Below, one piece after another: positions 1 through 57,434 of a DNA stretch of 64,000 nt. This stretch comes from an uncultured Anaerobiospirillum sp. (lineage in GTDB: Bacteria > Pseudomonadota > Gammaproteobacteria > Enterobacterales > Succinivibrionaceae). The position numbers were made by a program, and so were the translations under genes. The first letter of the stretch is position 1, and each line of letters starts with the position of its first letter. The notes under the pieces were generated by a model. That model worked only from the letters and a program-made list of their open reading frames with translations, had not been told where the DNA came from and ran no database searches. The DNA is taken from positions 21,486 through 85,485 of the forward strand of contig CALXOW010000007.1 of NCBI GenBank assembly GCA_944390115.1. Reading direction: 5' to 3'.

Positions 1-172
1 ATATTTATCAGGGCATCGGCGTTACTTGTTGGCACTAGGCCGGATGAATCATTGCTTGCGGCATAGAAAGTGCAAACTTTTGGGACTTTGAGTCTGTTCC
101 AAGGCTTTCTGGGAACCAACAGCTTAGTCACCTCATTTTTTTTTTAGGTGTGCTTTCTTTTTCTTCTTGGTG

Positions 173-297
173 TGAGCGCAGCCGAGGCTGCGAGATTGTG
201 TGCAACGCAGCCTAGGCTGCGAGATTGTATGCAGCGCAGCCTCGGCTGCGAGATTGTGAGCAGCACAGCCTCGGCTGCGAGATTGTGTGCAGCGCAG
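173..297. repeat. 29-bp tandem repeat array, about 4 copies
   Basis: Four near-identical 29-bp units begin at about 173, 202, 231 and 260. Each contains a short palindrome (CAGCC-A/T-GGCTG type, for example CAGCCTCGGCTG) followed by CGAGATTGTG. The array ends about 55 bp before the glycosyltransferase start and lies downstream of a T-rich stretch (137-146). It could form a row of hairpins in an mRNA leader. An open frame of about 74 codons runs through it, but its product is only translated repeat, so I do not call a gene. Confidence 0.85.
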
Positions 298-33094: not shown

Positions 33095-35698
33095 ATGAGT
33101 GAGCAACGCGGTAACAATCAAAACAGCCGCACCAACCGTTTTAACGGCACTGCTAACGGGACCAATGGCTCCAACACGTACGGCTACAACCAAAATCAAG
33201 GTTATGGCTACCAAGGGCGCAACTATAACCAAAACGTCGGTAACTACAACAATGCCCGTGGCTATAACGGCAATAATGGCGCCTACAACGGGAACAATGG
33301 CGCCTACAATGGAAACAACGGCTCCTTTAACGGCAATTACAACGGCAACAGCGCTAACCCCAACTACGGCCAGTACAATCCTAACGGCCAGATGCCGTAC
33401 TCAGTACAGATTCCGTGGGACAAGTTTGAGCTCAGGCGCAAGAAGCACCGCAACCCAATCTGCGCCTTTTTACTGGGTGTAGGCAGCGTTATCACCTTTG
33501 CGCGCAACCTGGTCTTTAACCTGATTTTCCTTGGCATTATCGCCTTGGTCTTTATGGGCCATTACATCGTTTCCAGCCTGCAAGAGCAGGGACTGTCGAT
33601 GTCCCAGGCGGCCCTGGAGCAAATGGAAGGCTCGAGCCTCCCAGCGCAAGTGCTCTACTTTGATTTAAGTGGCTCCTTGAGCGAAGCGCCTTTTAGCCCG
33701 AACCAGTTTGACAGCATGCAACGTGAACTCGAGTTCATGTTCAATGGCACCTACAGTCATGAACTGGTGGCGATCGAGAATGCGCTCAACTTGGTCTCAG
33801 GCGATCCTGATATCAAGAAGGTCTTGATCAACATCGACAATATGGCGCCTCTGACCTTATCAGTCGCTGAGCGTATCGGCAAGGCGATGGAGCACGCCCG
33901 TGTGGTCAATATCTCAGAGGAGCAGCGTGCTAAGTACGGTTCAGACAGCTCAGATCACTCCTCGGGCTTTAGCAGCGATGGCGACACCATGCGCCGTGAA
34001 GTGATTGTCATGGGCACCAACTTTAGCCAAGCAGCTTACGTCTTAGCCGCCCACGCCGACAAGGTGATCTTAGATCCTTTAGGTGCGGTGGACCTGCGCG
34101 GTATTGCCCTGTCGTCGCTCTACTTTAAGGACACCTTAGAGCAATTCCATCTCACCCCTTATATCTTTAGAGCTGGTCGCTTTAAGAGCGCAGTCGAGCC
34201 CTTTATCTTAAGTGGCATGTCCCCAGAGGTACGCCGCTCCTACCAAGCAATTGCCGCCAAGTCCTGGGAAATCTACACCAACGCGCTCACCAGCCGCAGC
34301 GCGATTAAGAACGTCAGCAATATCCTGCCGGACGCTGCTACCTATGTGAAGTGGGTCGAGGAATTTAACGGTGACCGCGCCGCAATGCAAAAGGCACAAG
34401 GCTTAGTGGATGAGGTGATGCCGCTTGAGCGCTATCTGTGTCAGCTCAGCACCGAGGTCAATGTCGATGCCGACCACAAGAATCGTCCGGCCATTATCAC
34501 CTACCAAGACTACCTCTTACGCTACCACTACCTCAACACCGGTAATGGCAATGTCGGCTCGCTCTCAGCGATCGATATTCCGCGTTCCCTGCAGCACCCA
34601 CAAAGTGAAGAAGAGCAGCCAAGCTCGGCCCCGCAGCGTATCTTGGCGAGCACTGCGCTCACTGGCGCGAGCACCGCGCTCACTGGCAGTAGCGCCAGCA
34701 CTGCGCTCAGCTCCTCGACCAAGATCGCCGCTCCTAATCTGGTCGCGGAGGAAAGTCTCTTAGATCAACTCAATGAGGCGCAAAAGCAGCGCGAGCGTCG
34801 GGCCGCCGCCAATAAGCGCCGCAGCGCTGGGGCAGGTGAGGTCGCGGTCATCTACGGTATTGGTGAAATTCGTGAGAGCGGCGAGCGCATCACCGACTTC
34901 ACCTACGACAATATCGCACCGTTGTTTGATGAGGCCGCTGACGATCCTAATATCCAGGCAGTGGTTCTGTACTTAAATAGCCCTGGCGGCAGCGTCAACG
35001 CCTCAGAAAAGATTCGCCGCGCGATTGCTGAGTTCCAAATGCGTACCTTAAAGCCGGTCGTGGTTTCGATGAATGGCACCGCTGCTTCGGGTGCTTATTG
35101 GCTGGGCTCGCAAGCTGAGCGCATCTTTGCTACCAAGTCGACCTTAACCGGCTCGATCGGTGTCTTTGGTATTGCCATGGGCGCCCACAATCTGCTCAAC
35201 CGCTATGGCGCCTACCAAGACGGCGTGGCCACTAACGAGCTGGCGGTAACCCCAATTGGTGAGGAAATGCCAACCACCCAGCAGGAATTGCTCAATATGT
35301 CAGTTGAGCACACCTACCGTCAGTTCTTAGAGCTGGTGGCACAAAACCGTGGGCTCAAGGTCAACGACTACGATCTCTTTGCTGAAGGTCAGGTGTTCTT
35401 AGCCGACGAGGCCAAGATCGTGGGCTTAGTCGATGAGATTGGCGATTTGGACGATGCCATTTCCTACGCGGGCAAGCTAGCGATGCTCGACCCTGAGACG
35501 ATGCGCGTTAAGCACTTGGTGCCAAGCAGTGCTGGTAACTTAGGCAATTTCGGCTTAGTCTTTGGCCTGGCGCACGCCTACCTGCCTGATAACGTCACCT
35601 ATGCACTGCTCAAGCTCCATGAGACGATGCAACTGGCAAAGGAGCCGCATCAGGTCAGCATGCAGGCCTTAACCCCAGTGCAAAGCCCTGAGCTGTAA
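33095..35698 (+). CDS. sppA: Signal peptide peptidase SppA with Asn/Gly/Tyr-rich N-terminus
   Basis: SppA (protease IV) digests cleaved signal peptides in the inner membrane. The protein is the long, two-domain type: 867 residues against 618 in E. coli. A membrane helix lies near residues 128-150. The general base Lys364 is in FKSAVEPF and the nucleophile Ser665 in GTAASGAYWLG, followed by STLTGSIGVFG. Residues 1-107 are Asn/Gly/Tyr/Gln-rich, including AYNGNNG heptad repeats encoded by a 21-bp DNA repeat (33260-33340). The linker between the two protease domains has repeats of STALTG. The stop overlaps the next start (TAATG), so expression is coupled to the radical SAM gene. Confidence 0.9.
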   Translation: MSEQRGNNQNSRTNRFNGTANGTNGSNTYGYNQNQGYGYQGRNYNQNVGNYNNARGYNGNNGAYNGNNGAYNGNNGSFNGNYNGNSANPNYGQYNPNGQMPYSVQIPWDKFELRRKKHRNPICAFLLGVGSVITFARNLVFNLIFLGIIALVFMGHYIVSSLQEQGLSMSQAALEQMEGSSLPAQVLYFDLSGSLSEAPFSPNQFDSMQRELEFMFNGTYSHELVAIENALNLVSGDPDIKKVLINIDNMAPLTLSVAERIGKAMEHARVVNISEEQRAKYGSDSSDHSSGFSSDGDTMRREVIVMGTNFSQAAYVLAAHADKVILDPLGAVDLRGIALSSLYFKDTLEQFHLTPYIFRAGRFKSAVEPFILSGMSPEVRRSYQAIAAKSWEIYTNALTSRSAIKNVSNILPDAATYVKWVEEFNGDRAAMQKAQGLVDEVMPLERYLCQLSTEVNVDADHKNRPAIITYQDYLLRYHYLNTGNGNVGSLSAIDIPRSLQHPQSEEEQPSSAPQRILASTALTGASTALTGSSASTALSSSTKIAAPNLVAEESLLDQLNEAQKQRERRAAANKRRSAGAGEVAVIYGIGEIRESGERITDFTYDNIAPLFDEAADDPNIQAVVLYLNSPGGSVNASEKIRRAIAEFQMRTLKPVVVSMNGTAASGAYWLGSQAERIFATKSTLTGSIGVFGIAMGAHNLLNRYGAYQDGVATNELAVTPIGEEMPTTQQELLNMSVEHTYRQFLELVAQNRGLKVNDYDLFAEGQVFLADEAKIVGLVDEIGDLDDAISYAGKLAMLDPETMRVKHLVPSSAGNLGNFGLVFGLAHAYLPDNVTYALLKLHETMQLAKEPHQVSMQALTPVQSPEL

Positions 35699-38028: not shown

Positions 38029-41000
38029 TTAAGCATCATAAGTGGTCATGTCCGGCATCACATCAGGATGTGGTGCTTCGTGGGCGTCGCCTTGTGGGCG
38101 CTCATCACTAGGTTTGCGCTCACTTGGGCCCTTACGCTTCTTCTCAGCCGGAGCGTCGTCGGCGTCGTCGTTTTTAACGGCATTGACCGAACTGTCGGAG
38201 CTATCGCGAATCTCCATATAGTTCTTGTGCTCCTCGGCCTCCATGCGCAGCTTGCGCTGCTTCTCGCGCTTCTCGTAGCCGCTTAAAGTCCACTCCTCCA
38301 TCGTGGTCGGCATGAACTCCTTCGGCTTGAACTCCAAGGCGATATCGAGCACCTCGTCGATAGTCTTGACCGGCACAATGTTGAGGTTCTTGGTGACCTT
38401 CTTTGGAATGTCCCACAGATCCTTCACATTCTCCTGCGGAATGCAGACCGTCTTGACGCCACCGCGTAAGGCCGCCAGGAGTTTCTCCTTTAAGCCGCCG
38501 ATCGGCAGCACGTCACCACGTAAGGTGATCTCACCGGTCATGGCAACATCAGCGCGCACCGGATTGCCGGTTAAGGCACTGGTGATCGCGGTGACCGTGG
38601 CGGTACCAGCTGATGGACCATCCTTCTTGATCGCACCTTCTGGGAAGTGGACGTTGAGATCCACATTCTGGTAGAAGTCAGGCGCCAGGTGGAACGAGCG
38701 CGCATGCGAGCGTACCCAAGCAATCGCGGCAAAGACCGACTCCTTCATTACCGAGCCTAATTGGCCGGTTAACAGGTGGCTGCCCTTACCCTCATTGGCC
38801 ACTACTTCCACTTGGAGCATATCGCCGCCCACTGAGGAAACGCTCAGACCATTGACCACGCCAATGCGATTCTCCTTGAGCTTGGAGGTGAAGTCAAAGC
38901 GCTTTGGACCGATTAACTTCTCGATTTCCTTGACGCCCAGCACCACCTTCTTCGGATTCTTCGGTGGGTTGATCATCAGATCCTTGACCACCTTGCGGCA
39001 CAGCTCAGCGATAATGCGCTCTAAGCTACGCACACCGGCTTCCATGGTGTAGTGCAAGATGAGCTGATTTAAACCGGCATCGGAGATATCAAACTCATCA
39101 GCCGTTAAGCCATTCTTGGTCAACTGCTTCGGCAGCAAGTGCTCACGGGCGATGTGGAACTTCTCATCGGCCGTATAGCTGCTCAGATCGATGATCTCCA
39201 TACGATCGCGCAGGGCCGGTGGGATGTTATAGCTGTTGGCGGTGGCAATAAAGAGCACATGCGACAGATCGTACTCAAGGTCGACATAGTTGTCGTTGAA
39301 GCTCTTGTTTTGCTCTGGGTCTAAGACCTCGAGCAAGGCCGCCGAAATATCGCCGTGCTGGGTACTGCCTGAGACCTTGTCGATCTCATCTAACAAGAAC
39401 AGCGGGTTGTTGGCCTCGCACTTGATCATGTTCTGGATGATACGACCTGGCATCGCACCGATATAGGTACGACGGTGACCGCGAATTTCGGATTCATCGT
39501 ACATACCGCCTAAGGCCACGCGCACATACTTACGGCCGGTGGCTTGGGCAATCGAGGCGGCCAGCGAGGTCTTACCGATACCTGGAGGGCCCATTAAGCA
39601 CAGGATTTGACCGTTGGCGTCTTGGGTCTTTTCCTTGCGGGTTTGTACCGCTAAGAACTCCAAGATGCGGTCCTTAACCTTCTCTAAACCGTAGTGCTGC
39701 GACTCCAAGATCTCCTTGGCCTTTTGCAGATCACGGTTCAATGGGGTGCTGAAATGCCATGGGATCGAGAATAAGGTGTCGATATAATTGCGCACCATCG
39801 AGTTTTCGCCGCTGTTCACCGACATCACGGCGAGGCGCGAAATTTCCTTTTGCAGGCGATTGATGACTTCAATTGGCGCGTCAAAACCTTGCAGCTTATT
39901 GCGATACTCTTCAATGTCGTTGGAATCATCCACGTGCATATTGAGTTCGCGCTTGATCGCCTTGAGCTGCTCGTTTAAGTAGAAGTCACGCTGCGAGCGC
40001 TCCATGGCGCTGCGGGCATCTTCGGCAATCTTCTTATCAACCTCAGCCTTGTAGGAGAAGTTATTTAAGTAAGCGATGATCGCCTTAGCACGGGCAACTG
40101 GGTCAAGCGACTCGAGCACATACTTCTTATCAAAGTATGGTAAGAGCAGAATCTGGGCTAAGCCATCGGTCATGAGGCTCAACGAGGACTGCTCGCGAAT
40201 CGAGCTTAACATCTCGCTTGGGATCGTCTTGTCGACGATGGTACGCCCACCGTGACTTTGCACCTCTAAGGCGGTGTCTAAGGCCGAACGCAAGGCCTCA
40301 ACATAGCGCCGCTCAATTAAGGAGTCGACTTCCTGCTCGTTTAAGCACTCGACTTCGACATGGCGCACCGTGCTCGATGGCTCGTCGATAATGCGGCGAA
40401 TACAGATACGCTGATAGCCGCGAATGGTAGCGCGGTACTGTTCCTTTTCGTTGTAGGAGCCATTTAAGACGCGGGCTAACACACCGATGCGGCTTAAGTC
40501 CTCACGATTAGGGCGGCCCCCTGGGACCTCAACTAACTGCGAGAAAACGGCAACGCCCTTAGTCGAAGCCAAGGCCTCTTCTAAAGCGTGAGCCGTGCTT
40601 TCACGAGCGGCAATGAGCTGCACGTTGGCCGCTGGGGTGATGATAATCGAGCGTAAGGTGACCAGTGGGAAGGTGCCTACGACCTTATCCTTGGTATCGT
40701 TGGTGGCATCTGCGACCACCACGTCGTCGCCTTCGGACTTGCGCTCTGACTTATCGCCCTCAGTATCCTTAGCCGGGCTTGGGACGCCTACGGCGTCATC
40801 AGAGCCGCTCTTTTGCTGTTTGGATTCAGCTGCGACCATAGCGCTGACTTCCTCAGGGGTAAGCTCGCGTGGTACCTCGAGATTGGCTACGCCGGAGCCG
40901 CTGTCGGTCTGTGCGGCGACCGCAGGCTCAGTACCTGCTGGCTTCTTGGCCTCAGGCTTGGTGACTTCCGTCTTACCCTTCTTGCCCGCAGGCTTCTTCG

Positions 41001-41031
41001 CCTTAGTATTGTCGTCGTTAATTTGTGACAT
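38029..41031 (-). CDS. lon: ATP-dependent protease Lon with long disordered ends
   Basis: Lon is a hexameric AAA+ protease that degrades misfolded and regulatory proteins. This 1000-residue form exceeds E. coli Lon (784). Residues 1-118 are Lys/Ala/Pro/Glu/Ser-rich, the LON domain starts near 120 (GTFPLVTLRSIIITP), Walker A is GPPGIGKTS (near 485), Walker B FLLDEIDKV, and the Ser-Lys dyad is in DGPSAGTA (near 808) and GGLKEKLLAA (near 848). About 80 charged residues follow the protease domain. ATG 41031 (MSQINDDN) is chosen; the Shine-Dalgarno is weak. It is last in tig-clpP-clpX-lon. Confidence 0.93.
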   Translation of the reverse strand: MSQINDDNTKAKKPAGKKGKTEVTKPEAKKPAGTEPAVAAQTDSGSGVANLEVPRELTPEEVSAMVAAESKQQKSGSDDAVGVPSPAKDTEGDKSERKSEGDDVVVADATNDTKDKVVGTFPLVTLRSIIITPAANVQLIAARESTAHALEEALASTKGVAVFSQLVEVPGGRPNREDLSRIGVLARVLNGSYNEKEQYRATIRGYQRICIRRIIDEPSSTVRHVEVECLNEQEVDSLIERRYVEALRSALDTALEVQSHGGRTIVDKTIPSEMLSSIREQSSLSLMTDGLAQILLLPYFDKKYVLESLDPVARAKAIIAYLNNFSYKAEVDKKIAEDARSAMERSQRDFYLNEQLKAIKRELNMHVDDSNDIEEYRNKLQGFDAPIEVINRLQKEISRLAVMSVNSGENSMVRNYIDTLFSIPWHFSTPLNRDLQKAKEILESQHYGLEKVKDRILEFLAVQTRKEKTQDANGQILCLMGPPGIGKTSLAASIAQATGRKYVRVALGGMYDESEIRGHRRTYIGAMPGRIIQNMIKCEANNPLFLLDEIDKVSGSTQHGDISAALLEVLDPEQNKSFNDNYVDLEYDLSHVLFIATANSYNIPPALRDRMEIIDLSSYTADEKFHIAREHLLPKQLTKNGLTADEFDISDAGLNQLILHYTMEAGVRSLERIIAELCRKVVKDLMINPPKNPKKVVLGVKEIEKLIGPKRFDFTSKLKENRIGVVNGLSVSSVGGDMLQVEVVANEGKGSHLLTGQLGSVMKESVFAAIAWVRSHARSFHLAPDFYQNVDLNVHFPEGAIKKDGPSAGTATVTAITSALTGNPVRADVAMTGEITLRGDVLPIGGLKEKLLAALRGGVKTVCIPQENVKDLWDIPKKVTKNLNIVPVKTIDEVLDIALEFKPKEFMPTTMEEWTLSGYEKREKQRKLRMEAEEHKNYMEIRDSSDSSVNAVKNDDADDAPAEKKRKGPSERKPSDERPQGDAHEAPHPDVMPDMTTYDA

Positions 41032-41304
41032 TAATGCTTGCACTCTCAGTTGGATTAAGGCTAGGAAAAAGCCTAGCACTCAGAGTGGGGGCGCGTCCGC
41101 CGACACCTGTCCCTACTTTGTGTTTGTTACTGGTGCCCAGGCCCGCGCTCCAAAATCTTGCTGGTGCGGCCGTGCGCCAACCGCTGATAAGCTTGCTAAC
41201 CGCTTTTACGCGCGCGCGCCCACCGCTGATAGACAGTGAGCTAGCTGCTGACGGGCAGTGAGCGCACCTTTTTTTTTTTCGCTCGCGCCCACTGCTTGTT
41301 AGCG
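41032..41304. other. clpX-lon intergenic region
   Basis: About 270 bp. It contains repeated GCTGATA/GACAGTGAGC-type short repeats (41180-41262) and an 11-T run at 41270-41280 next to GCAGTGAGCGC, terminator-like on the plus strand only. I cannot define the lon promoter. Confidence 0.4.
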
Positions 41305-42573
41305 TTAGCTGACTAAGGCCGAATCAGTCTTAATTACGACTGGCTCTTCGTCCTTGCGCACCGTGTCCTCGTTGACTAAGACCTTCTTGACGTCGTGGAC
41401 CGAAGGTATGTCATACATGGTGTTTAACAGAATATTTTCTACGACCGAGCGTAAGCCACGGGCACCGGTGTGACGCTCGATGGAGGTATCGGCAATCGCA
41501 CCTAAGGCCTCTGGGGTGAACTCAAGATCCACGCCCTCAAGCTTGAAGATAGTCTGGTACTGTTTGACCACCGCGTTCTTAGGCTCGGTTAAGATGCGTA
41601 CCAGCTGCTCGCGGTTTAACTCCTGTAAAGCCGAGATAACCGGCAGACGGCCTACGAACTCAGGGATGATACCGAACTTAACTAAGTCGTCTGGCTCAAC
41701 GCGCTTGAACTTTTCGGTCAAGGTCAGCTCTTCGTCCTTGGTCTTAACCTCGGCACCAAAGCCGATACCGGCGTTGGTCGACAGACGCTTGTCCACAATC
41801 TTCTCTAAGCCATCGAAGGCGCCGCCGCAGATAAAGAGGATCTGCGAGGTATCAACTTCGATCATCGGCTGGTTCGGGTGCTTACGACCGCCACTAGGTG
41901 GCACCGAAGCGACCGTGCCCTCAATTAACTTGAGCAGAGCTTGCTGGACGCCTTCGCCCGAGACATCGCGCGTAATCGATGGGTTCTCGCTCTTGCGGGC
42001 GATCTTATCGATCTCGTCGATGTAGATAATGCCCTTTTGGGCCTTCTCGACATTGCCATCGCACGAGTTGAGCAGACGTACGATCACATTTTCCACGTCC
42101 TCACCGACGTAACCGGCCTCAGTTAAGGTGGTGGCATCAGAGATCGCAAACGGCACCTTTAAGAAGCGCGCTAAGGTCTGCACCAGCAAGGTCTTACCCG
42201 AACCGGTTGGGCCAATCATCAAGATATTGGACTTACCCAGCTCGACATCGTCGGCCTCGGCGTGGGCGGCGTGCTTTAAGCGCTTGTAGTGGTTATAAAC
42301 CGCGACCGACAGCACCTTCTTGGCGTCGTCTTGACCAATGACGTATTGGTCTAAGTGCTCGGCCATTTCGTGTGGCGTTGGGATGTTCTCTAAGTCGATA
42401 TAGCCCGGATCTTCCTTATCTTGGGCGTTCTTTTTCTTGAGCTTGACGATCTCAGCGCAACGCTCAACGCAATCAGAGCAAATGCAGTAACCCGACGACG
42501 ATTGGATCAGGGCACGGTTCGGACTTGCCGGTTCGCCACAAAAGAGGCAAAAATTCTTTTTCTTATCAGGCAT
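41305..42573 (-). CDS. clpX: ClpX ATPase of the ClpXP protease
   Basis: ClpX unfolds tagged substrates and feeds them to ClpP. The 422-residue protein has the N-terminal C4 zinc-binding domain ([10 protein letters not shown] ... [10 protein letters not shown]), Walker A GPTGSGKT, pore loop GYVGEDVE, Walker [11 protein letters not shown] and sensor-2 [10 protein letters not shown]. Length matches E. coli ClpX (424); unlike its partners ClpP and Lon here, it has no added tails. Start ATG 42573 lies 20 bp after the clpP stop with GGAG upstream, so clpP and clpX are co-transcribed. Confidence 0.97.
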
Positions 42574-42593
42574 TGCTACCTCTCCTCCGTCGC

Positions 42594-43850
42594 TTACTTC
42601 TTGGTCTGATTGTTACGCTTGCCCTTAGGGGCAGCAGCGGTGCGGTTATTACGGCCTGGAGCTACTTGCCCTGGCATCATACCTGGCACTTGGCCTGGGA
42701 CTTGACCTGGCACCTGTCCGGCAACTTGGCCCGGAACTTGGCCTGGCACTTGACCAGGCATCGCCCCTGGCATTTGATTTGGCATTTGCCCCGGCATTGG
42801 CCAAGGCATACCAGTCATCGGGTTAATCGGTGGCGTCATCATGCCAGGCACGGCGGCACTGCTCGGCAATCCGGCTTGCATAAAAGCCTGCATGACTGGG
42901 TTCATGCCCTGCGGCATCATCTGGCCATTCATGGGGGCCATGCCATTCATGAGATAAGGATTGGTCACGCCCATCATATTAGGCACATCAGCGGTATTGG
43001 TCGGCTGACCAGCTGGTGCCTGCGGCACTAAGGTGGTCTCAGCAGGCTCGGCCTTAGCTTCAGCCTTAGTCTCGCTCTTGGACTTGTCCTCAGCCTTATC
43101 CTCTGGCTTGTCCTCGCCTTGAGCCTCACTGGCACCGCCGCTTGGGTCAGTTACGTCCGGAGCGGGAAAAAAAGTGCCGCTAGGCCCCCCGTTAGGGTCA
43201 GTCGGATCTGGGCGTTCAATCGGCTTATCACCACGGTGCATGATCACTTGATCGATTAAGCCATAGGCTAAGGCCTCACCTGCACCCATGAAGTTATCGC
43301 GCTCGCAATCGGCCATCACCTTCTCTAAAGGCTGGCCGGTGTTTTGAGCCAAGATCATAGCCAAGGTCTGCTTGGTGCGCTCGGTTTCACGGGCGTGGAT
43401 CATAATATCGGTAGCCTGGCCCTTATAGCCACCTAATGGTTGGTGAATCATGATGCGGGCATGCGGCAGCGCAATACGCTTACCCTTAGCGCCACCTGCT
43501 AATAAGAAGGCACCCATCGAGCAAGCTTGGCCTAAGCACAGGGTGCAGACATCAGGCTTGATGTACTGCATCGTGTCGTAGATCGCCATACCAGCGGTCA
43601 CAACACCGCCTGGGCTATTGATATAGAGGTAGATGTCCTTATTAGGATCGTCGGACTCTAAGAACAGAAGCTGGGCGATGACCAGATCGGCCATGCGATC
43701 TTCGACCTCACCAGTTAAAAAGATCACGCGATCCTTTAACATGCGCGAGTAAATATCAAAGGAACGCTCGCCGCGCCCCGTCTGCTCGATCACCATCGGA
43801 ACGAGGGTGGACATTCTGGTTTGAAGGTCGATGACTGACATGTCTGACAT
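42594..43850 (-). CDS. clpP: ClpP protease subunit with a 211-residue C-terminal extension
   Basis: Residues 1-207 are a complete ClpP serine peptidase. The triad is Ser111 (GQACSMGA), His136 (IMIHQPLGG) and Asp185 (CERDNFMG), matching E. coli precursor numbering. E. coli ClpP ends near residue 207; this protein continues to 418. The extension has a Pro/Gly/Asp linker, an acidic/Lys-rich part (about 240-275), a Met/Asn/Pro-rich part (290-350), a repeat of PGQV/PGQM (352-397) coded by a 12-bp DNA repeat (about 42655-42800), and a basic end ([20 protein letters not shown]). There is no frameshift: the frame runs on through the tail. The ClpX-docking face of the ring carries the C-termini, so the tail may bear on partner binding. 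Confidence 0.93.
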
Positions 43851-44351: not shown

Positions 44352-45779
44352 TTAGGCCTGCTGCTCAGTTGGGTACCACTTCTTAGTTAAGTCCTGATTA
44401 CGGGTAGCCAGCTCCTTCTCCTGAGCGGCGATCAGCTCTAAGGCAGACTTGTAATCGGTGACCTTCTCAGCAACGGTGACTAAGTTGCACAGGTTCTGAT
44501 ATAACTTGTGGTTGATGCACATATTGCGCACGGTGTTCATCTCAGCCTGATCGTCGCGGATTGCTTCCTTGTACTTCTCAGGCTCGTCGAACATAACCGA
44601 ACGCTGCTCAATGTAAGCGTTGAGCTCATCATCGGAGATCGAGTCGATGTTCAGGGCACCTAACTCCTTTAAGTCCTCCAGTAACATGGAGTTGAGGAAT
44701 AAGGAGAGGGAGCCTGGGATCAGCATTGGCTTGAGGACCTCAAATAACCGAGCATCCTTGGCCGAAGGCTTCTGACCACGCAGAATGTTTTCCTTGATGT
44801 GCTGCTCAACGTGAGCATCGAGCTCGGACTTGCTTGGCTGGAACAGATCATAGCCATAGTGAGCCATAATCTTGTCAAAGACTGCGTTGAGGTTGTAGTG
44901 CTCAGACTGCATGTCAGCCTGGACTAACAGCTGCTTCTTTAACTCTGCCATGAACTGATCAACGGTCTTGTCCTCTTCGTAGCCGAACTTCTTGATGAAC
45001 TCAGCGTCGATCTCAGGCAGCTTGCGCAGTAACAGGTTCTTGACGTTGATCTTGAAGGTAGCCTTAGCACCACGTAATTCTTCGGCAACGTAGTCCTCTG
45101 GGAAGGTGCACTCGATCTCAAATTGATCGCCAACCTTGTGGCCTACGATCTGCTCGCAGAAGCCTGGGATCATGGAAGTGCGACCCATATCGAGCTTGAA
45201 GTCCTGAGCCGAACCGCGCTCAAAGGCAACACCGTCACGGAAGCCCTCAAAGTCGATCGTAACTTCGCAATCCTTCTCGGTTACGGTGGCACCCTCTGGA
45301 GCTGGCTCTAAGGTCGAGTATTGAGTACGTAAGTTATCGAGGGTGGTCTTGACATCCTCGTCGCTGACTTCGATCTTCAATGGCTCGAAGGTGACCTCCT
45401 TGGCCTCAGCGATATTGAGCTGAGGGATAACGGTCACGATGCAAGTAAGCTTGTACTCGGCATCAGGCTGGAGAGCAGGGATCTCAGTAATCTCAGGATG
45501 GATCTGCTTGTTCAGGTTCAAGCCTAAGGATTGAGCTTGCTCAGGCAGAGCCTGAATTGCAACATTCAGGATCTCCTCTAAAGCCTCGCTATTGATGCTG
45601 TAGCTGTAGCGCTGCATCAGCACGCTCTTTGGGACGTGGCCCTTACGGAAACCATCAACACGGGCACCTTGAGCAAACTTATTGAAGCTCTTTTGATACT
45701 CCTTCTTAACCACATCAACAGGTACAACCAGCTCAACAGTAGCCTTGTTACCTACAGTCTTAATAATGTTAGCCTGCAT
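44352..45779 (-). CDS. tig: Trigger factor (ribosome-bound chaperone)
   Basis: Trigger factor binds the ribosomal exit tunnel and shields nascent chains. The 475-residue protein has the N-terminal ribosome-binding domain with the signature region GFRKGHVPKSVL (G-F-R-x-G-x-x-P), an FKBP-type peptidyl-prolyl isomerase domain (DCEVTIDFEGFRDGVAFERG...) and a helical C-terminal domain. It is about 40 residues longer than E. coli Tig (432), mostly in the C-terminal arms. It precedes clpP-clpX-lon, the usual order, but its own terminator suggests separate transcription from clpP. Confidence 0.96.
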   Translation of the reverse strand: MQANIIKTVGNKATVELVVPVDVVKKEYQKSFNKFAQGARVDGFRKGHVPKSVLMQRYSYSINSEALEEILNVAIQALPEQAQSLGLNLNKQIHPEITEIPALQPDAEYKLTCIVTVIPQLNIAEAKEVTFEPLKIEVSDEDVKTTLDNLRTQYSTLEPAPEGATVTEKDCEVTIDFEGFRDGVAFERGSAQDFKLDMGRTSMIPGFCEQIVGHKVGDQFEIECTFPEDYVAEELRGAKATFKINVKNLLLRKLPEIDAEFIKKFGYEEDKTVDQFMAELKKQLLVQADMQSEHYNLNAVFDKIMAHYGYDLFQPSKSELDAHVEQHIKENILRGQKPSAKDARLFEVLKPMLIPGSLSLFLNSMLLEDLKELGALNIDSISDDELNAYIEQRSVMFDEPEKYKEAIRDDQAEMNTVRNMCINHKLYQNLCNLVTVAEKVTDYKSALELIAAQEKELATRNQDLTKKWYPTEQQA

Positions 45780-56420: not shown

Positions 56421-57434
56421 TTAGACCTCAACTGGAGCGTCAACCTCAACAGCTGGAGCGGCAGTGTCCTCAGCGGCAGGAGCTTCCTCGGCTGGAGCCT
56501 CAGCGGCAACGTCCTCTACGACTGGAGCCTCTGCTGGGGCAGCTTCTGGAGCAGGTGCAGCTTCCTCAGCTGGAGCTGCTTGTTCAGCTGGAGCAGCTTC
56601 TGGGGCAGGCTCAGCTACTGGTGCTGGAGCTGCAGCTGCATCATCCGCAGCAGCTGGAGCGGCCTGCTCTGGCGCAGGAGCTGGTGCTGGGCTGGGAGCA
56701 GGCTCCTCAGCAGGTACCGCCTCCTGTGGGGCTGGGGCTACGGGAGCAGCCTCAACTGGTGCTGGAGCGGCATATGGAGCTGGCTGTAAGTCAGTCTGAA
56801 TGAACTGCACAATGGCTTGGTGCAGGTCATAGCGGGCTTGACGCATAGCGTCACGAGCCTGGGTGAACTCCTTGGCCTTTTGGTTGGCAATGACCGTGTC
56901 ACCGGATTGGACGGCGGCGCGCATCTCTTGGCGCTTAGCAAAGACGTCATCTTGGAGTTGAGCTAAGGTCTCAAACTCGGCCTTGAATTGCTCATAGATG
57001 AAGCTTGGATACTGACCATAACCGCGTTGACCTTGGAAGCGATAATCGCGATCGTAGCGATCAGCTGGGTCAAAGCCGCGTGGGCAGTAGCCATTGTTGT
57101 AGTGGTGACGTGGAGCCCAATCACGATCCCAACCGCCATGACGTGGGCCATGACGCCAGCCGCGCTCTGCGGCATCTTGGTAACCGTCACGATAGCCCTC
57201 GCGATAGCCTTGGCGTGCGCACCACTCGTTGTGATGCCAGCCGCGCTGGTCTTGCCAGGCACCTCGCTGCCAATCGCCCTGCCAGTTGCCTTGGTGGTAG
57301 CGCGGGCAATCTTGTTGATAGCCGTAAGGGCAATCTGGGCCTTGACCCCACCAGTGATGCATACCCGCCTGAGCAGCGCCGACCAAACCAACACTAGCAA
57401 CCACGGCAAGAGCAAGCTTAGTTAACTTATTCAT
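56421..57434 (-). CDS. Periplasmic His/Trp/Tyr-rich protein with Spy/CpxP-like helices
   Basis: The 337-residue precursor has a signal peptide (cleaved after AAQA, residue 23). The mature N-terminus (24-140) is rich in His, Trp, Tyr, Gly, Arg and Gln with repeats such as YREGYRDGYQD and HHWWGQG; it could bind metal. A helical stretch (about 145-210, FKAEFETLAQLQDDVFAKRQEMRAAVQSG) resembles the LTXXQ-type stress chaperones Spy, CpxP and ZraP in size and charge, without the exact motif. The rest is Pro/Ala/Glu-rich. I do not know the family. A perfect 30-bp dyad and a TATAAT lie upstream, suggesting specific control. Confidence 0.75.
   Translation of the reverse strand: MNKLTKLALAVVASVGLVGAAQAGMHHWWGQGPDCPYGYQQDCPRYHQGNWQGDWQRGAWQDQRGWHHNEWCARQGYREGYRDGYQDAAERGWRHGPRHGGWDRDWAPRHHYNNGYCPRGFDPADRYDRDYRFQGQRGYGQYPSFIYEQFKAEFETLAQLQDDVFAKRQEMRAAVQSGDTVIANQKAKEFTQARDAMRQARYDLHQAIVQFIQTDLQPAPYAAPAPVEAAPVAPAPQEAVPAEEPAPSPAPAPAPEQAAPAAADDAAAAPAPVAEPAPEAAPAEQAAPAEEAAPAPEAAPAEAPVVEDVAAEAPAEEAPAAEDTAAPAVEVDAPVEV

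Follow-up and report, generated by a model that had tools for sequence, protein, structure and literature searches.

A long C-terminal tail with a conserved short motif on the ClpP protease of one Succinivibrionaceae genus

In textbook Clp systems, an ATPase and its adaptors choose the substrates, and ClpP serves as a rather passive chamber. It is surprising to find a long tail on so conserved an enzyme, although somewhat less so given how many other proteins of this genome carry tails, and the clpP gene described here raises the question of whether such a tail is genuine, how widely it occurs and what it might do. The gene lies in a 64,000-nucleotide stretch of DNA from an uncultured Anaerobiospirillum sp. 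(referred to as the window), where it forms a single uninterrupted open frame of 418 residues. The ClpP core ends at residue 207 and is followed by 211 further in-frame residues of low complexity, i.e., a tail that roughly equals the enzyme in length (Table 1).

The core is that of an ordinary bacterial ClpP (TIGR00493, peptidase family S14), with which it has the whole catalytic core, the triad and the adjacency to clpX in common. It scored 333 bits with the NCBIfam clpP equivalog TIGR00493 (cut-off 308.6, spanning residues 15-205) and 279.3 bits with Pfam CLP_protease (PF00574, cut-off 20.2, spanning residues 26-205), and the equivalents of Ser111, His136 and Asp185 are likewise Ser/His/Asp in 11/11 members of the genus. 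A sequence-only reading of the window had recognized a full ClpP domain with this triad, an in-frame tail doubling the length of the protein and a ClpX of normal length (422 aa), all of which were borne out. Its placement of the tail at 42594..43217 was right as to the presence of a tail but began 4 residues late, the tail spanning 42594..43229. Within the genus, the ClpP N-terminus is 3 residues shorter in 7/11 members, and two cores (G006 and G009) are protein-identical to that of the window. Besides CLP_protease, Pfam gave only a sub-threshold NfeD match inside the core, so a fusion with a second domain was rejected, and the tail returned no other match from its own genome at E values up to 10. 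A whole-genome profile search showed the tailed clpP to encode the sole full ClpP of the window genome. The other PF00574 match was weak and partial (22.5 bits, 54/182 positions) and came from an SppA-like Peptidase_S49 protein of 867 aa (window 33095-35698, (+)).

The gene order around clpP is tig-clpP-clpX-lon, in which the upstream neighbor, judged from its position and sequence, is presumably tig and the last gene, judged from its sequence, presumably lon. Since the clpX ATG follows 20 bases past the stop codon of the tail, with GGAGGAGAGG between the two, the long form of ClpP fits the operon as it stands.

Table 1. Features of the clpP locus, in window positions.
Feature	Position	Strand	Basis
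clpP, 418 aa: core residues 1-207 and C-terminal tail 208-418	42594..43850	(-)	ORF, family profiles
ClpP core, normal, propeptide-like N-terminus, triad S111/H136/D185	43230..43850	(-)	profile and residue comparison
C-terminal tail, 211 aa and stop codon	42594..43229	(-)	core-end comparison with relatives
Tail part 1, Pro/Asp/Gly linker	43119..43229	(-)	ER dipeptide near start, tail comparison
Tail part 2, acidic/Lys stretch	43038..43118	(-)	poorly conserved across genus
Conserved motif VMQAFMQ, residues 319-325	42876..42896	(-)	motif class in 11/11 tails
PGQV/PGQM repeat, residues 352-396	42663..42797	(-)	TRF 42664-42796; lineage-specific
Basic C-terminal end, residues 400-418	42597..42653	(-)	charge count
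clpX, 422 aa, intact IGF loop	41305..42573	(-)	ORF and sequence comparison
Presumed tig (trigger factor), upstream neighbor of clpP	44352..45779	(-)	ORF
Presumed lon, lengthened at both ends	38029..41079	(-)	ORF and comparison across loci

A survey of ClpP C-termini across the family, which the sequence-only reading had proposed as a check, revealed tails in 11/11 genus genomes and at most 19 residues elsewhere among the loci examined. Counted from one common core end, the genus tails measure 162, 183, 187, 189, 200, 202, 211, 214, 234, 240 and 402 residues, in clpP open frames of 373-627 aa. Outside the genus, the clpP frames among the matches listed measured 201-244 aa, except for 321 (G048) and 326 aa (G050), whose extra length lies on the N-terminal side. 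The largest C-terminal excess past the core was 13 residues across 109 loci outside the genus (i.e., 19 of the same family, the best 80 of 594 named matches, eight long-frame loci, L132 and L133, the last duplicating a gene among the eight), and a reading of 20 loci outside the genus gave maxima of 19 and 16 residues, both from extra ClpP copies of one genome (G034), as against 211 residues in the window; other family genomes outside the genus were judged from frame length alone. In a phylum sample of 349 genomes, seven frames of at least 264 aa (264-341) were found among the matches listed, with at most 13 extra C-terminal residues, and rarity outside the phylum was judged from the best 80 of 594 named matches, picked by similarity. 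The tail is thus real and, among the genomes examined, genus-specific. In the largely open-access literature, no ClpP tail of this kind was found among the matches listed.

Some family genomes depart from a single clpP. G034 has three copies, and both G031 and G032 have two; the identity of the extra copies to the window core is 60-63%. A ClpP match at E values up to 1e-20 was obtained in 53/57 family genomes and none at that threshold in G036, G039, G054 and G055 (59, 69, 77 and 93% complete, respectively). The latter two, both of genus g13, hold a full-length ClpA-like match next to this missing ClpP match, for which loss, divergence or an assembly gap are possible explanations.

Codon comparison of the tails yielded a dN/dS of 0.08 for G000 (the window genome) and G006 (20.2 nonsynonymous and 54.8 synonymous changes), of 0.18 for G008 and G001, and of 0.10-0.28 in four more distant pairs whose synonymous sites are near saturation. 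The ClpP cores of these six pairs are 93-100% identical, and the tails, with 1-14 indels per pair, evolve much faster than the core. Since dN/dS lies well below 1, the tail is translated and, being under purifying selection, partly constrained.

The acidic/Lys, Met/Asn/Pro, PGQ and basic parts that the sequence-only reading had distinguished in the tail are all present, and several traits recur across the genus. An ER dipeptide lies inside the first 12 tail residues in 11/11 species, the net charge of the first 60 residues is negative in 10/11 (with +3 in G003), the last 45 carry a net charge of +5 to +8 in 10/11 (with +1 in G003), and one or two Trp residues stand within a Pro-rich setting in 9/11. 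The Met content ranges from 4.7 to 12.3% across the 11 tails and is 9.5% in that of the window, in which Pro is the commonest residue. This composition suggests that the tail is probably disordered. An AlphaFold2 model based on 14 sequences had a mean pLDDT of 37.8 and gave the core itself no confident fold; the sole tail helix in this low-confidence model (residues 318-325) coincides with the motif described below, which is a hint only. We interpret an ORF antisense to the tail (42525-43031) as a probable shadow of the repeat.

The element that all tails share is a short Met/Phe motif, i.e., [VM]MQ[AS]x[MLF] (scored as [VM]MQ[AS][AFM][MLF]), present in 11/11 tails. In 5000 rounds of shuffling, this pattern, which was composed after inspection of the tails, occurred in a mean of 0.0076 and a maximum of 1 tail, a control that overstates independence because the 11 species are related and G001 and G008 are nearly identical. 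In an alignment-free ranking, each 12-mer of the window tail was scored by its best match in the seven tails outside the close group (near-duplicates G001 and G008 included) and compared with shuffled sequences. Each of the eight highest-ranking 12-mers overlapped the motif, with a mean z of up to 4.87 vs. 2.42 for the first unrelated 12-mer, and the best 12-mer reached z values of 1.8 to 8.5 in single tails. At the DNA level the motif varies synonymously while the peptide is preserved. Moreover, it was found in 1/1933 ORFs of at least 80 aa in the 863 kb surveyed, namely ClpP itself, and a nucleotide pattern covering part of the motif had one match in the whole genome, inside clpP. The linker between core and motif varies across the genus from 86 to 306 residues. 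The motif is weaker in G002 (MMQAAML), and the tail of G003 has the motif as VMQAFLQ, without the basic end or the acidic linker and with 4.7% Met, about as much as the highest value among the other tails of the window genome.

The sequence-only reading had put its stress on the PGQ repeat, which did not hold up as a conserved element, since the repeat is absent from 6/11 species and present as a single copy in one (G010), with seven copies in G000, six in G005, five in G006 and three in G009.

Which ATPases could work with this ClpP was judged from profile matches. For ClpA, no match in any family genome exceeded the curated cut-off, a cut-off of limited use here since matches were scored in pieces; full-length ClpA-like matches (E ~1e-220) were limited to genera g12 and g13 of the family. 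ClpS was found in 5/56 family genomes, all of g12, and was not found in 12 of the 13 genera other than that of the window. In the genus genomes neither a ClpS match nor a full-length ClpA-like match was found, and the ClpA-model matches they do have are partial, lie in frames of ~880-980 aa and are presumably ClpB. Because ClpS and a full-length ClpA-like match are both missing, ClpX is probably the only partner ATPase of ClpP in the genus. The adaptor SspB occurs in 10/11 genus genomes, and the IGF loop is intact in 9/10 genus ClpX sequences compared, with MGF in G010 (on the eleventh contig, the sequence stops ~165 bases after clpP). The idea that the tail replaces ClpA/ClpS was set aside for want of a specific link, since these proteins were not found in most other genera either.

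The reading that we prefer, at about even odds, is that the tail is a multivalent docking arm whose motif brings a partner to the protease entrance or regulates it there; we infer the disorder, position, docking role and partner. In this genus, an ordinary ClpP has acquired a C-terminal arm that is translated, selected and probably disordered. Since ClpP consists of two stacked seven-membered rings, seven such arms should surround each ring face where ClpX docks. Each arm comprises a variable hydrophilic linker (86-306 residues), one hydrophobic motif, a Met-rich filler segment and, in most species, a basic end, with the motif probably folding into a short helix upon binding. The candidate partners are, in order, ClpX, an adaptor and client proteins; ClpX could be reached via its N-domain, or through competition for the hydrophobic pocket of ClpP in the manner of shorter extensions. 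ClpX docking, clustering of protease particles and tethering of substrates, which the sequence-only reading had brought forward as roles for the tail, are possible.

If the docking arm is true, part of substrate control shifts to the peptidase ClpP. A bolder and improbable extension is that ClpP is a multivalent hub, with seven Met-rich arms per face, each with a helix-forming motif, that would gather ClpX, adaptors or clients into an assembly centered on the protease; the choice of substrates would then lie with the peptidase as well as with the unfoldase. Given the lack of ClpS and full-length ClpA-like matches in the genus, effects of the tail on ClpXP would be separable, which makes for a natural experiment, and the small size of the motif would allow its binding to be tested directly with peptides. 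The rival readings in which the tail is a lid, holds clients or clusters particles overlap with that of a docking arm, so their odds are not meant to sum to one.

The alternative that survives best, although we lean against it, is that the tail is a by-product of a genome-wide lengthening of proteins with low-complexity sequence, which the exposed face of the ring tolerates and which has little function of its own. A survey of orthologues compared 863 kb of the window genome (G000, 3.64 Mb; loci L144-L163 and L224-L243 plus the window) with 1.2 Mb of a sister-genus genome (G012, ~3.0 Mb; loci L164-L223). Among 204 reciprocal best pairs, which include some antisense ORFs, the G000 protein was longer by at least 50 C-terminal residues in 16 and by at least 100 in seven, and shorter by at least 50 in one. 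The same counts (16 gaining at least 50 residues, one losing as many) held for the 171 pairs whose outgroup ORF measured 150 aa or more, in which ClpP ranked fifth. Nine of the other lengthened proteins were compared with Pfam and named as DctP, DUF416, BPD_transp_1 permease, Tsp-type S41 protease, AMP-binding, DUF805, AccD, TerC and ProQ; the largest of the 16, the DctP protein, has a pair identity of only 22% and may not be an orthologue, and another (g0_C1_100), a membrane protein, seems to reflect a broken alignment and no clean tail. Lon, longer at both ends, has frames of 985-1251 aa in the 10 loci of the genus that hold lon, whereas in the 15 loci from other genera they measure 824-949 aa, apart from a single frame of 570 aa, and AccD frames measure 350-457 aa in the genus vs. 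244-373 in the rest of the family, with overlapping ranges. Since 16 of 171 orthologues were lengthened and one shortened, the raw ClpP tail may have come from a genome-wide process, and with so many unrelated tails in the genome, the mere possession of a tail may mean little for function. Low-complexity stretches, kin in kind to the ClpP tail, are reported to be common and conserved in many prokaryotes (PMC6821194).

Nevertheless, Met content and motif set the ClpP tail apart from the others. The 15 other C-terminal extensions contain 38 Met among 2984 residues pooled (1.3%) and 4.5% at most, with Ala as the commonest residue in 10/15, so that the ClpP tail is the only strongly Met-rich one of the 16. 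Against a mere by-product also speak a length beyond the family range in 11/11 species, the single conserved motif and the low dN/dS. Moreover, just 4/42 pairs at 70% identity or more gained at least 50 residues, ClpP among them. Elsewhere in the window, an ORF at 56421-57434 (-) combines a signal-peptide-like start with an Ala/Pro/Glu-rich C-terminal part and tandem repeats (56457-56630), and so adds one more tail of low complexity.

The motif might also act as an autoinhibitory lid that occupies the hydrophobic pockets of ClpP and competes with the IGF loops of ClpX, a reading by analogy that we hold to be unlikely. The motif is hydrophobic, and residue 126, presumably F112 of mature E. coli ClpP, is I/M in 11/11 genus sequences vs. 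F/Y in 27/28 other family sequences and 63/80 named ClpPs. Yet in number the pocket change does not exceed chance: five of the 191 core columns are genus-specific and one of these, residue 126, falls in the assumed 12-residue pocket set (hypergeometric p = 0.28), so co-evolution of the pocket was dismissed, with one striking column and no significant enrichment. Mimicry of the IGF loop by the tail was rejected as well, as 7/11 genus tails hold no IGF-like tripeptide and the other four just MGM or MGL.

Precedents, for a docking arm as well as for a lid, come from three known C-terminal ClpP extensions acting on the docking face, from which the present tail differs in its length and its far-off conserved motif. 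In Mycobacterium smegmatis ClpP1, an extension of ~12 residues on the ClpX-docking face, a likeness to the tail described here, is reported to sit in the protein's own pocket, and after its deletion E. coli ClpX drove degradation via the ClpP1 face and the cognate ATPases did not (PMC6889138), which counts against a simple lid in that removal was insufficient for cognate docking. That extension is ordered in the pocket and part of a two-ClpP system, whereas the window combines a far-off motif with a sole full ClpP. The C-terminus of Listeria ClpP2 is reported to be able to fill the pocket, with an increase in ClpX affinity upon shorter deletions (PMC9035409), and the 28-residue extension of human ClpP is thought to act likewise at the ClpX site (PMC12994072), although it points away from the ring in a structure (PMC6889138). 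In both, the longer C-terminus is reported to lower ClpX affinity, yet it is much shorter than the genus tails. With a variable linker that places the motif 86-306 residues off, vs. the 12-28 residues of these precedents, an outward tether is favored over a simple lid.

Less likely again is a client-holding brush, in which flexible Met-rich tails on a sevenfold ring would hold non-native proteins at the entrance. The layout resembles in kind that of GroEL, whose Gly-Met C-terminal tails are reported to bind clients (PMC12571646, PMC11978752), and a hydrophilic and then a Met-rich segment on a double sevenfold ring fits the ClpP tail in composition and order, as does its Met content. However, GroEL is an unrelated protein, with tails reported to be 24 residues long (PMC12571646) and to point into the cavity (PMC4379175), and a single conserved motif suggests specific docking more than stickiness. 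We give slightly less credence still to Met/Pro/Gly/Gln/Asn-rich tails joining protease particles into condensates or clusters, perhaps under redox control. Tail composition agrees with it, and a Met-rich region of yeast Pbp1 is reported to form oxidation-sensitive droplets (PMC8394241), but the tails have few aromatics and are little conserved outside the motif. Finally, a frameshift, a misassembly or a read-through past the normal clpP end, the last as a sequencing error raised by the sequence-only reading itself, is refuted at the sequence level by the tails in 11/11 related genomes, the purifying selection on them and the clpX signal straight after the tail stop, leaving an artefact next to no probability.

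Away from clpP, a 29-base unit is repeated 4.4 times in tandem (window 170-297) before the first long ORF.
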